Shown here: positions 12,730 to 25,729 of the stretch, in pieces
Position numbering within the stretch: position 1 is the first letter of the stretch
Layout: every line of letters begins with the position of its first letter
From: Mitsuokella sp. oral taxon 131 str. W9106
Lineage (GTDB): Bacteria; Bacillota; Negativicutes; Selenomonadales; Selenomonadaceae
NCBI RefSeq assembly: GCF_000469545.1
Contig: NZ_KI273058.1
Span: 62,001-126,000 of the forward strand
DNA length: 64,000 nt
Direction of reading: 5' to 3'
Translations under genes and position numbers: made by a program
Notes under the pieces: generated by a model
Database searches by the model: none
Told to the model about the DNA's origin: nothing
The model's input: the letters and a program-made list of their open reading frames with translations, nothing else

Positions 12730-13511
12730 TGGCAGAGCTCGTCGACAGCCATACGCATCTCAACAGCACGAAGTTCCAAGACGATGTGGGCGAGACGATC
12801 GAGCGCGCGCATGCGGCGGGCGTCACGCGTCTCATCAATATGGGCGATACGCTTGCGTCTTCGGCGCGTGCCGTCGAGCTTGCAGCGCAGTACGGCACAC
12901 GCGGCGTCTACGCCGCCGTCGGCATCCATCCGGAGGAAGCGTTTGAGCTCACTGGGAAGGAAGACGCGCAGCTCGCCGATTGGACGCGCGCGGAACATGT
13001 CGTCGCGATCGGCGAGATCGGGCTCGATTACTACTGGGAAAAGGACGAGGAACGGCGCGCGCTCCAGCGCCGCATCTTCGTGCGCCAGCTCGACCTCGCG
13101 CGCCAGCTCCACCTGCCTGTCTGCATTCATGACCGTGAGGCGCACGGCGATACGCTCGCGATTCTCAAAAAGGAAGGACGCGGCATCGAAGGCGTGCTTC
13201 ACTGCTTTTCGGGCAGCCTCGAAATGGCTAAGGAGACGGTGAAGCTCGGCTACCATCTCGGCGTCGACGGACCGCTCACCTACAAAAATGCGGCGAAGCT
13301 TCCCGAAATCGTGCAGAAGATACCGCTCGAATGGCTGCTCGTCGAGACGGATGCGCCGTACATGACGCCCGTGCCATTTCGCGGCAAGCGGAATGAGCCC
13401 GCCTACGTGCGATACGTCGCAGAGAAGATGGCAGCGTTTCGCGGCATTCCGTTTGAGGCGGTTGCGGAGGCGACGACGGCGAATGCCGTGCGGCTCTATC
13501 ATCTTGCGTGA
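12726..13511 (+). CDS. tatD: TatD family metal-dependent deoxyribonuclease
   Basis: A 261-residue TIM-barrel hydrolase of the TatD family. The metal motif DSHTH is at residues 7-11, with GEIGLDYYW and the late ETDAPYM segment also seen. Family members are 3'-5' DNases with a role in nucleic acid repair or quality control. It is translationally coupled to metG through ATGA; GGAGG is spaced better for the second ATG (12729). Confidence 0.93.
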   Translation: MMAELVDSHTHLNSTKFQDDVGETIERAHAAGVTRLINMGDTLASSARAVELAAQYGTRGVYAAVGIHPEEAFELTGKEDAQLADWTRAEHVVAIGEIGLDYYWEKDEERRALQRRIFVRQLDLARQLHLPVCIHDREAHGDTLAILKKEGRGIEGVLHCFSGSLEMAKETVKLGYHLGVDGPLTYKNAAKLPEIVQKIPLEWLLVETDAPYMTPVPFRGKRNEPAYVRYVAEKMAAFRGIPFEAVAEATTANAVRLYHLA

Positions 13512-13527
13512 AGTTCCGAAAAAGCCA

Positions 13528-13570
13528 AAAGTGGCGAGAGACTAGCTGAAAATGCCTCTCGCCACTTTTC
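13528..13570 (+). terminator. intrinsic terminator after tatD
   Basis: A perfect 14 bp stem (13528-13541 with 13557-13570) with a 15 nt loop; the descending arm ends in TTTT and a T-rich stretch follows. Confidence 0.8.
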
Positions 13571-13713
13571 GTTTCCCATTTTTCCATATAAAATTCAGCT
13601 AAAAGTGGGAGAATACCACCAGCAGTTCAAATGGACTGCTATTTGCCGCGTGAGGTTTCGCATGGGGAAAGGCGCGAGACTCTCACAAAATATCTGCCTT
13701 TAGGGGGGATTCA

Positions 13714-22886: not shown

Positions 22887-23693
22887 ATGATCAAAATTAT
22901 TTTTTCAGACATGGATGGGACGCTGCTCGACGCAAATGGGAACGTGCCGGATGGATTTGCCGAAGTGGCAGCCGATCTGGCGCGGCGCGGCGTGCTTTTC
23001 GCCCCGTCTTCCGGTCGGCAGTACGATTCCCTGCGCGACAGTTTCGCGCCGTTTCCGCAGGATTTTCTCTACCTCGCGGAAAATGGGACGGTCGTCAAGC
23101 ACAAGGATAAGCTCGTATTTCGCAGCCTGATGGATAAGGGCATTGCGGAAGAGATTCTCGCACGCGTCGAGCAGATGCCGGAAATCTACGGCGTCTTTTG
23201 CGGCACGAAGAGCGGCTATGTGCGCGAAGATGAATACGTTCCTGGCTTTCGGGACGAACTTCACCAATATTACACGAACACGACGGAGCTCCCCACGCTT
23301 CGCGACGTGCCGGACGAACCCGTCAAGGTATCGGTCTACGATCCGACGGGGCATGCCGATACGAGGATCTATCCCTACTTGAAGGAATTTGAGGATCGGG
23401 TGCAGGTCGTGCTCGCGAGCAAGAACTGGCTTGATGTCATGCGATTTGGCGCCAATAAGGGGGCAGCGGTGCGCGCCGTGCAGGAACGCTTCGGCATCGC
23501 GCCGGACGAATGTGCGGCGTTTGGCGATTACCTCAATGACACGGAAATGATGGGCGCGGTCACGTATAGCTTCGCGATGGCGAACGCACATCCGAAAATC
23601 AAGGAAATCGCACGCTACGAAACGGCGAGCAACGTGGACGGCGGCGTGCTGAAAGGCATTCGCCGCCTCATGGAAGAAGGGCTGATCCGATGA
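22887..23693 (+). CDS. Cof-type HAD hydrolase
   Basis: A 268-residue HAD phosphatase of the Cof/YbiV group. Motif I DMDGTLLD is at about residues 8-15, a serine follows in PSSGR (motif II), a lysine lies in FGANKGAAV (motif III), and GDYLNDTEMM carries the motif IV aspartates. A type IIB cap separates motifs II and III. Such enzymes hydrolyse sugar phosphates or flavin/PLP phosphates. It overlaps the next gene by 4 bp. Confidence 0.9.
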   Translation: MIKIIFSDMDGTLLDANGNVPDGFAEVAADLARRGVLFAPSSGRQYDSLRDSFAPFPQDFLYLAENGTVVKHKDKLVFRSLMDKGIAEEILARVEQMPEIYGVFCGTKSGYVREDEYVPGFRDELHQYYTNTTELPTLRDVPDEPVKVSVYDPTGHADTRIYPYLKEFEDRVQVVLASKNWLDVMRFGANKGAAVRAVQERFGIAPDECAAFGDYLNDTEMMGAVTYSFAMANAHPKIKEIARYETASNVDGGVLKGIRRLMEEGLIR

Positions 23694-24541
23694 GATGTGA
23701 TTACCACATGCACTTTGAAAAGGGGGCGTATGACGAGAATTGGGCCGAGGGGTTCTTCGATGCGGCGAAGAAGCGCGGGCTCGGCGAGATCGGCATCTCG
23801 GAGCACAGCCATACATTCCCCGAGTTCGAGCCGCTCTACTATGAGAATCTGATCCTGGATGACAGCTTTGTCGGCTCCTTTCAGAAGAAGTGGCTCAAGA
23901 CGAACAAGTTCAAGTATACGATCGACGAATACTTCGCGTTCATGCGTCGCCTGCAAAAGAAGCACGCCGTCAAGATCGGCATCGAGGTCTGCAATTTCCA
24001 GGATCAGAAGGCCGTCGCGCAGATCCTTCGCCGCTATCCGTTTGACTACATCATCGGATCGGTTCACTTCCTGCACGGCTGGGCGTACGACTCCGCCGAG
24101 ATCAAGTCGGAGTGGGCGAATCATCCGCTCGAAGAACTGTACGGCTGGTACGCCGAGGAAGTCGAAAAGCTTGCGGCGTCAGGGCTCTACGACGTGCTCG
24201 GACATCCGTTCAACATACGCCTCTTCAAGAATATTCCCGACTTCGATGTGCGTCCGTACCTTGAGCGCGTCGCGAAGGCGATGCGCGCGGCAGACATGGT
24301 GGTCGACGTCAATACGGGCACGCGCTACCGCTACCCGATCAAGGAGATTTCGCCCTATGCGGACTTTATGCGGGTCGCGGCGAAGTACGATCTGCCGATC
24401 ATCACCACGTCCGATGCGCATCAGCCCGAAGACTGCGGTCGATACAACGCGGAAGCGGTCGATTATGCGAAGTCGTTCGGCTACGAGGGAACGATCCGAT
24501 TCGATGGAAGAAAACGCGCATTTGAGCCGTTCGATCCGTGA
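23690..24541 (+). CDS. PHP-domain phosphatase, histidinol-phosphatase-like
   Basis: A 283-residue PHP superfamily metal-dependent hydrolase. Metal motifs seen are DYHMHF (4-9), SEHSH, GSVHFLHG, LGHPFN and TSDAHQPEDCG. The layout resembles HisK-type histidinol phosphatases, but no histidine gene is nearby, so that reaction is only a possibility. It is coupled to the HAD gene by ATGA. Two phosphatases in one operon suggest a small-molecule phosphate salvage step, which is inference. Confidence 0.82.
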   Translation: MRCDYHMHFEKGAYDENWAEGFFDAAKKRGLGEIGISEHSHTFPEFEPLYYENLILDDSFVGSFQKKWLKTNKFKYTIDEYFAFMRRLQKKHAVKIGIEVCNFQDQKAVAQILRRYPFDYIIGSVHFLHGWAYDSAEIKSEWANHPLEELYGWYAEEVEKLAASGLYDVLGHPFNIRLFKNIPDFDVRPYLERVAKAMRAADMVVDVNTGTRYRYPIKEISPYADFMRVAAKYDLPIITTSDAHQPEDCGRYNAEAVDYAKSFGYEGTIRFDGRKRAFEPFDP

Positions 24542-24606
24542 GGGAGTTGCGCTCTGCCGGTTTGCTGCATCATGTCGTGCGATAGGATAAAAAATATACG
24601 AAACGC

Positions 24607-24635
24607 TTGACAATAGTAGGACGATTGTCTATACT
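24607..24635 (+). promoter_or_regulatory. strong promoter driving a non-coding transcript
   Basis: Consensus TTGACA (24607-24612), exactly 17 bp, TATACT (24630-24635). Transcription would begin near 24642, with no gene start in the next 500 bp on this strand. Confidence 0.85.
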
Positions 24636-24641
24636 ATAACT

Positions 24642-25144
24642 AAGGAATGGGAGCAGGATTCAAGAGTTCCTTTCTGAAGGAAGTGTTGGTTCTGTATGAG
24701 GCAATAGTGACGTTACGGACGTGGCGTCGCATGATTGTCTAGCTAGACCCCGCAACCGCGCAGGACAAACACAAAACCTGCAGCAGCTCATGCGATGAGA
24801 CCGCTGGAGAAAACTTGGTTTTCTCGTATATCTTCTTGGTATATCGCTCGAAGCTGTGATCGTGCGAGGAGAGATGATCATGATGGTGCTGCTTCTGCGC
24901 GAATGTGTACAGCCGCGTGCTCGCGTATGAAAGACAGCTTGCAAGGGGTAGCGGACTTGATGGTCGTAGATGGCCGCCGCTGCTTGCCATGAGATGGTCG
25001 ACCTTTCTCAAGCTGACCGCAAGTCGAATGGGTGTAAGGTAGTAGCGATTTAGCTCGATAGCCGTATGAATGTGCGGAGCTGCCGAAATCGCCCGTAACG
25101 CATTTATTGCAAAGTAAAGGGCATCGCTTATGCGATGCCCTTTT
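24642..25144 (+). ncRNA. large structured non-coding RNA candidate, about 500 nt
   Basis: Between the promoter and terminator no convincing coding frame is seen, but paired segments are dense. GCAATA (24701-24706) pairs with TATTGC (25105-25110), and CGTTACGG (24711-24718) pairs with CCGTAACG (25093-25100), with a 4x4 internal loop between them. Together they close about 410 nt. Inside are GCAGG/CCTGC (24760-24781), an 8 bp hairpin (24807-24825), GCAAG/CTTGC plus AGCGG/CCGCT (24941-24987), CCAT/ATGG (24987-24997), and GCGATTT/AAATCGC with AGCTC/GAGCT (25045-25092). I could not match it by eye to RNase P RNA, tmRNA, 6S RNA or SRP RNA, nor to a group II intron domain V. The function is unknown. 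Confidence 0.75.
25116..25144. terminator. terminator of the structured RNA
   Basis: A perfect 12 bp stem (25116-25127 with 25132-25143) and TTAT loop ending in TTTT. It also lies just past the stop of the convergent minus-strand gene and may serve both. Confidence 0.9.
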
Positions 25145-25156
25145 GCTTGGCCTTTT

Positions 25157-25729
25157 TTAGTGTTTCATCTGAGACGGCGCTTTCGGGATGTCGAGCTCGA
25201 CAGCCATGACCGCCTCTGCGCGCTTCCGCATGTCGGCAGACGATATGCGCGACCAAACCTTCTGAACGGTTTTTTTGAATGCGTCGCCGGCCGGTTCGTC
25301 GACCGACTCATTCTCGACGTAGTCGCGCAGGACGTACTGGAATCCCTCGTTCATCGGAACGTCGCGCTGGGCAAGCAGGATCCGAAGGTTCGAGTCGACG
25401 AGGTAGAGATGCAGGATGCCTTCATCGAGACTCTTGCCCGTCGGCTGATGCTCCGCAGGGATTGCGTGCAGGGAGAGCGGGGCGTCGCCCCAGCCCTCCT
25501 TGAATATGCCGTCGATCTGGTAGAGCAGGAAGAGGATGCCGTTCTCCTTGTAGAGCGCAAACTCCATCGCACCCGTACGAAATGCCTCATGTGCGATCAC
25601 GTCGGTATGGGCGAGCTGCAGGATGAACATCGTGCCGTTCGCGTCGACTTGAAAAAGTCCGCCGTCTCCTTGCTCGTGGATGGCCAAGGGGAATGTTTGT
25701 CCGATTTCAAAACGCGTGTAGTTGCTCAT
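25157..25729 (-). CDS. hypothetical protein
   Basis: A 190-residue soluble protein that I do not recognise. The first 125 residues look like a beta-rich domain with alternating hydrophobic residues. The last 50 are charged and helical (DAFKKTVQKVWSRISSADM). No signal or membrane segment is seen. AAGGAGAG precedes the ATG. It begins 8 bp after the stop of the cysteine-rich peptide gene, so the two form an operon whose 3' end meets the structured RNA. Confidence 0.75.
   Translation of the reverse strand: MSNYTRFEIGQTFPLAIHEQGDGGLFQVDANGTMFILQLAHTDVIAHEAFRTGAMEFALYKENGILFLLYQIDGIFKEGWGDAPLSLHAIPAEHQPTGKSLDEGILHLYLVDSNLRILLAQRDVPMNEGFQYVLRDYVENESVDEPAGDAFKKTVQKVWSRISSADMRKRAEAVMAVELDIPKAPSQMKH

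Follow-up and report, generated by a model that had tools for sequence, protein, structure and literature searches.

Organization of the locus

The window (the whole 64,000-nt stretch of the Mitsuokella sp. oral taxon 131 str. W9106 genome that was analysed) contains, between a phosphatase gene and a convergent gene, about 500 nt with the following features:

23690-24541, + strand: PHP-domain phosphatase gene (Pfam PF02811), a conserved 5' neighbour that anchors the orthologous position
24607-24635, + strand: sigmaA-type promoter TTGACA-17-TATACT, 11/12 consensus matches
24642-24879, + strand: leader of the window copy, unrecognisable in sequence relative to relatives, without sigma28 box and without GGA-loop hairpins
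24701-24718, + strand: 5' strand of the closing helix (GCAATA at 24701-24706, 4-nt loop, CGTTACGG at 24711-24718)
24748-24754, + strand: anti-Shine-Dalgarno strand CCCCGCA, one mismatch, covarying in the family
24862-24871, + strand: anti-Shine-Dalgarno partner GTGCGAGGAG, containing the Shine-Dalgarno sequence AGGAG at 24867-24871
24880-24930, + strand: relic start, with an ATG at 24880 that opens 16 codons only (MMVLLLRECVQPRARV, then a stop)
24889-24987, + strand: ORF 5' half, with no recognisable similarity to the best-conserved protein half of relatives
24994-25065, + strand: conserved RNA domain over former codons ~44-68, 17/18 pairs kept
24994-25003 with 25038-25040, 25056-25057 and 25061-25065, + strand: domain helix P1
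25013-25017/25023-25027, + strand: domain helix P2
25044-25046/25053-25055, + strand: domain helix P3
25051-25053, + strand: TAG at the site of a Trp codon that is invariant elsewhere in the alignment of the small ORF
25093-25110, + strand: 3' strand of the closing helix (CCGTAACG at 25093-25100, 4-nt loop, TATTGC at 25105-25110)
25116-25143, + strand: intrinsic terminator, a perfect 12-bp stem with a 4-nt loop, followed by TTTT
25157-25729, - strand: convergent gene on the downstream side, encoding 190 aa without a family above cut-off, conserved in many relatives' loci

A sequence-only reading had proposed that this stretch encodes a structured RNA of unrecognised type, with a promoter, closing helix and terminator of its own. 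The promoter was found as described, the terminator arms (25116-25127/25132-25143) form a perfect inverted repeat, and both segments of the closing helix (24701-24706/25105-25110 and 24711-24718/25093-25100) are exact complements. Relatives carry TTGACA-N16..18-TATAAT-like promoters at the corresponding site. The terminator may also serve the convergent gene; a near-copy of its region (L002) lies elsewhere in the genome, at G000:C12:5170-5205, with 92% identity over 36 nt. Two further peculiarities were observed upstream. An imperfect 16-nt direct repeat (81%) at 24616-24631 and 24726-24741 links the promoter spacer to the leader. In the window's leader only, 24807-24846 holds a pair of neighbouring, near-perfect hairpins that both have a CTTGG loop; this pair could reflect a template-switch mutation of the leader.

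The locus matches no known Rfam RNA. A scan of the window at Rfam gathering scores returned no match besides tRNA, and a scan of 24550-25200 up to E = 10 returned nothing credible. No covariance model matched, including those of RNase P RNA, tmRNA, 6S, SRP RNA, introns, OLE, ROOL, GOLLD, raiA and others. The data support a structured RNA, so far undescribed, that has a promoter and a terminator of its own.

Orthologous loci encode a small protein

An order-wide DNA search yielded matches to 24988-25072 in several genomes, nearly all directly 3' of a PHP-phosphatase gene; no plasmid or phage homologues were found. In these relatives, the matched stretch covers the second half of a small ORF, which follows an AAGGAG-type Shine-Dalgarno sequence. 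By protein search, this family was found in 49/189 Selenomonadaceae genomes, usually after the PHP-phosphatase gene; the count takes in the broken trace of the window itself. It occurs, for instance, in Selenomonas ruminantium, S. montiformis, S. bovis, Mitsuokella multacida and M. jalaludinii. The two remaining genomes of the window's genus (G001 and G002) have an intact ORF, and the window's own genome presented only a 34-residue protein trace containing a TAG. A typical relative's locus consists of a promoter, a leader of ~200 nt, an ORF of 64-77 aa and a terminator.

The small ORF of the relatives is under protein-level purifying selection (dN/dS = 0.10-0.37), and its core SQW...R...Q...AA is invariant in the alignment. 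The protein is polar and is predicted, with modest confidence, to adopt a hairpin-plus-helices fold (model pLDDT 72). No significant match was found in Pfam, NCBIfam, PHROGs, PDB sequences or Foldseek, and no homologue outside Selenomonadaceae in 398 genomes of the phylum. Divergent second members with short leaders were identified at other loci (L087, L088 and L089 in genus g29, L090 and L091 in g3, L092 in g28); those of g29 present a GCUGUGGAUGGC-type GGA hairpin upstream of the Shine-Dalgarno sequence.

These results bear directly on the proposal that the locus is a free-standing large ornate non-coding RNA, either a new class or a divergent member of OLE, ROOL or GOLLD, that never encoded a protein. 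Its promoter, closure and terminator are real and there is no Rfam match. Yet in nearly all relatives, the two genomes of the same genus included, the transcript is the mRNA of a conserved protein with a Shine-Dalgarno sequence and purifying selection, and the window retains the 3' half and the start site of that ORF. We consider a non-coding origin very unlikely. The first observation of a structured RNA was confirmed and its interpretation was half right.

The window copy has lost its ORF

In the window, the ATG at 24880 is followed by 16 open codons, and stops occur in all three frames. The ORF 5' half, which is the best conserved half elsewhere, reached a z-score of only about 2 against relatives, compared with 9-13 in control comparisons between intact relatives. 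The 3' half is clearly homologous: 24988-25112 matches relatives with z-scores of 5-26 and lies in the same gene neighbourhood. The window stretch is therefore the orthologue of a structured small-protein mRNA and an ORF-less derivative of it. The earlier statement that it holds no credible gene is right in that no gene is intact; the stretch is a broken gene that becomes visible only through its relatives.

It is extremely improbable that the ORF is really intact and appears broken only through a sequencing or assembly error, or that it is read by recoding. The net frame does return to frame 0 in the 3' half. Against this, the whole 5' half is a different sequence with several in-frame stops, the contig is 420 kb long and belongs to a 100%-complete genome, and the protein is restored neither by one frameshift nor by one read-through. 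We also considered how the ORF was lost. A loss of motility was rejected as the cause, as the window's genome possesses flagellins, FliA and CsrA, and a local inversion was rejected as the origin of the scrambled 5' half, as a reverse-complement comparison showed nothing.

The frame is destroyed, but the promoter, fold and terminator remain, which suggests that the RNA has a job of its own. Alternatively, the locus might be a decaying pseudogene, in which the gene was lost, the promoter, Shine-Dalgarno sequence, part of the fold and the terminator are functionless residue, and the terminator was kept for the convergent gene that shares it. The unrecognisable leader and ORF 5' half and the absence of the sigma28-type box and GGA hairpins fit such a decay, as do the differences in the surviving 3' half, which show no third-position bias. 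Considering also the evidence presented below, we regard decay as the main alternative, possible but less likely.

Closing and Shine-Dalgarno helices are maintained by compensatory change

The 510-nt transcript including the terminator folds more stably than expected (z = -3.96). This value dropped to a modest z = -2.3 without the terminator, indicating that part of the folding signal is the terminator itself. Relatives' transcripts presented folding z-scores of -1.4 to -5.7. A stacked 8-bp plus 6-bp closure spanning at least 350 nt was observed in only 2/2000 dinucleotide shuffles, and the window's own closing helix was equalled in 0/300 shuffles and its Shine-Dalgarno helix in 1/300 and 0/300.

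Aligning complete leaders by sequence alone produced hardly any consensus fold, and the leader helices were therefore tested by pairing permutation. The leaders of 28 representatives were matched both with their own 3' end and with those of all the others. Leaders paired with their own 3' end at a mean of -32.3 kcal/mol versus -24.9 kcal/mol with foreign ones (sd 0.87), and 0/20000 permutations were as good, which bears out the closing helix among homologues; a stricter compact-helix score agrees. The same test applied to the anti-Shine-Dalgarno strand and the Shine-Dalgarno sequence gave -14.7 versus -9.9 (sd 0.48; 0/20000). Alignment column counts confirmed the anti-Shine-Dalgarno helix and a GGA-loop hairpin (covariation of 0.333 versus 0.215 in shuffles; 0/500). 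The permutation includes congeners and is conservative in that regard, the shuffles ignore phylogeny and are liberal in that regard, and relatedness is incompletely corrected in these figures. In coding relatives, the closing helix joins the leader to the stop-codon region; in four loci (L076, L080, L081 and L083) it was no better than foreign pairings.

Four further stems listed by the sequence-only reading are all exact complements. Those within 25045-25092 are part of the window's MFE structure and cannot form together with the helices that the relatives conserve, and those within 24941-24987 lie where the ORF has become unrecognisable in the window copy.

An RNA domain inside the ORF

The third folded element lies within the second half of the ORF. 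Using an alignment of 18 sequences (A4), both ORF-less copies among them, we defined three helices: P1 (AUGGUCGACC with GGU, CG and GCCGU), P2 (CAGAC-CGCAA-GUCUG) and P3 (AGC-N6-GCU). In total, 89.8% of cells were paired, compared with at most 49.7% in controls and at best 37.5% when the partners were slid. Since the pairs were counted in the very alignment that gave the structure, the slid and recoded controls outweigh the raw percentage. When the 16 coding members were synonymously recoded, 190 +/- 6.4 pairs were obtained (maximum 208) versus 256 observed. Covariation reached 0.327 in the domain versus 0.192 (sd 0.017) in shuffles (0/500). One A-U/G-C coupling (GACC..GGU versus GGCC..GGC) alters amino acids in coding relatives. 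Synonymous change over codons 44-68 amounted to 0.75 of expectation versus 1.04, a difference matched in 28/20000 permutations. The domain is thus selected as RNA, beyond its coding role, and compensatory change maintains three folded elements in all, namely the closing helix, the Shine-Dalgarno-sequestering helix and this three-helix domain in codons ~44-68.

The domain is not uniform across the family. Five loci (L051, L055, L063, L070 and L074) keep only 13-14/18 pairs, and genera g22 and g29 are mostly without the P1 sequence. The window domain taken alone lies within 1 kcal/mol of its own MFE (cost 0.9). Imposing it on the full-length window fold costs 14 kcal/mol because window-specific hairpins compete, and it does not appear in the full-length MFE structure. 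Outside Selenomonadaceae, the RNA-domain model yielded a single weak match (G652, E = 0.004), which was not accepted.

Decay would be expected to act evenly, yet 24994-25065 and the helices persist in the window. Moreover, unpaired columns differ more than paired ones against L034 (13/36 versus 5/36).

Two ORF-less copies

The window copy keeps the closing helix, the Shine-Dalgarno helix and 17/18 domain pairs. A second ORF-less copy (L172) was found in genome G188 of genus g30, at about 13300-13700 of G188:C17 on the minus strand, after the PHP gene. It presents a consensus promoter, ~350 nt without any small-protein frame, and a terminator. All 18/18 domain pairs are formed; compared with coding members, 4-6 of the changes are compensatory on both sides and no pair is disrupted. 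No significant closing helix was detected in this copy. The ORF-less copies hold more domain pairs than coding copies of the same genus, which keep 13-14. Neither this excess nor the compensatory changes without a broken pair would be expected of a decaying pseudogene.

A search of Selenomonadaceae with the RNA-domain model revealed no further ORF-less copies. Remnants after the PHP gene were sought in 20 further ORF-lacking genomes and, besides G188, none was found; two of the contigs end within 300 nt. Because the window's congeners have intact ORFs, the two losses look independent. The ORF-less state is known from these two copies only, one of them in an 82%-complete genome; they lend indirect support to a possible RNA activity separate from translation.

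sigma28 and CsrA motifs in coding relatives

The motif TAAG-N13..17-CGATA was identified in about 33/40 orthologous leaders and upstream of 14/20 flagellin genes examined. It is close to the sigma28 (FliA/SigD) consensus TAAAGTTT-n11-GCCGATAA (PMC2859248). On these motifs, coding relatives would belong to the sigma28 regulon and share their promoter type with flagellar genes. The box is missing from the window, from g7 and g27, and from both intact g1 copies. Genus g7 constitutes a natural control: it has no flagellin, no CsrA, no FliA-grade sigma factor and no sigma28 box, and it keeps the ORF. The box sits just inside the closing strand, and the inferred start falls in the anti-Shine-Dalgarno strand; this anatomy suggests that a transcript started by sigma28 would be free of the long-range lock. 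The Shine-Dalgarno helix is also kept in genera without a sigma28 box, so that escape through sigma28 cannot be the sole relief of this helix.

CsrA binds preferentially to GGA placed in hairpin loops of six nt (PMC7652899). Most relatives' leaders carry GGA-loop hairpins; a hairpin of the type GCU-GUGGAU-GGC covaries, and a permissive count of GGA hairpins gave 52/52 versus 32 expected. A CsrA gene is present in most genomes of the family. These hairpins and the Shine-Dalgarno sequence are probable CsrA sites in coding relatives. Most of the family has one CsrA gene, and many genomes of genera g21 and g27 have two.

An RNA that may have outlived its ORF

The family presents both protein-level selection and RNA selection beyond coding, as expected of a dual-function (coding and structured) RNA, and the ORF is absent in the window. 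From the comparison of these sequences, we think that the window copy is probably a structured mRNA whose RNA has outlived its ORF. In coding relatives, the covariation shows that the long sigmaA transcript folds back on itself: its leader pairs with the region of the stop codon, and another helix seals the Shine-Dalgarno sequence. In this closed state it should be poorly translated. The sigma28-type promoter within the leader, judging from its inferred start site, would produce a shorter mRNA lacking the closing strand and much of the anti-Shine-Dalgarno strand, which could then be translated in step with flagellar genes. The GGA hairpins and Shine-Dalgarno sequence would probably add binding by CsrA, and the three-helix domain, selected as RNA, overlaps the later half of the coding frame. 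The window's species has lost the ORF, the sigma28 box and the GGA hairpins and has kept the promoter, closing helix, Shine-Dalgarno helix, domain and terminator. Most likely, a non-coding RNA of ~500 nt is still made, whose domain would still act in trans or in RNA stability. Several points count against an RNA that outlived its ORF: the window's leader and ORF 5' half drifted past recognition, as they would in decay; the domain is costly in the full-length window fold; the G188 copy has no significant closing helix; the ORF-less copies number just two; and the Shine-Dalgarno helix is also kept where the sigma28 box is missing.

A broader proposal is that this is a new RNA family, in which a multi-helix domain encoded in a protein frame is selected independently, and in which at least two lineages gave up the coding frame and retained a non-coding RNA. 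We find the case for this proposal evenly balanced. An RNA structure that overlaps an ORF and outlives it would offer a direct route to how non-coding RNAs arise from mRNAs. From common bacteria of the gut and rumen, the locus also adds a structured mRNA whose 5'-3' closure does not belong to a toxin system, as well as a small-protein family that the searched family libraries lack and that seems linked to flagellar regulation.

Comparison with known systems

Several known systems share individual properties with this family. In the full-length mRNAs of hok and aapA3, long-range 5'-3' closure and Shine-Dalgarno sequestration render the long isoform inert (PMC6733600). The family transcript presents the same two properties, and we do not claim these type I toxin mRNAs as relatives: escape here would occur through an internal sigma28 promoter rather than 3' truncation, and the family protein is soluble-looking, ~75 aa long and under purifying selection. 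In the hag leader of B. subtilis, CsrA occludes the Shine-Dalgarno sequence (PMC6529632). Coding relatives similarly possess a sigma28-type promoter and GGA motifs. In contrast to hag, they encode a small protein of no known family and have closing and anti-Shine-Dalgarno helices; their CsrA sites are putative, and the window copy has lost the sigma28 and GGA motifs.

Finally, in SgrS/SgrT of enterics one transcript holds a small ORF plus an RNA portion under selection of its own, and SgrS is kept without the SgrT ORF in some species, such as Yersinia and E. coli O157:H7 (PMC4021124). The two systems differ in that the RNA domain lies here within the ORF as a multi-helix fold, whereas SgrS has a base-pairing seed after the ORF, and no target or Hfq dependence is known for the Selenomonadaceae RNA. 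With an ORF that was lost and an RNA that was kept in some species, SgrS would be the nearest functional analogy, and we claim no homology with it.
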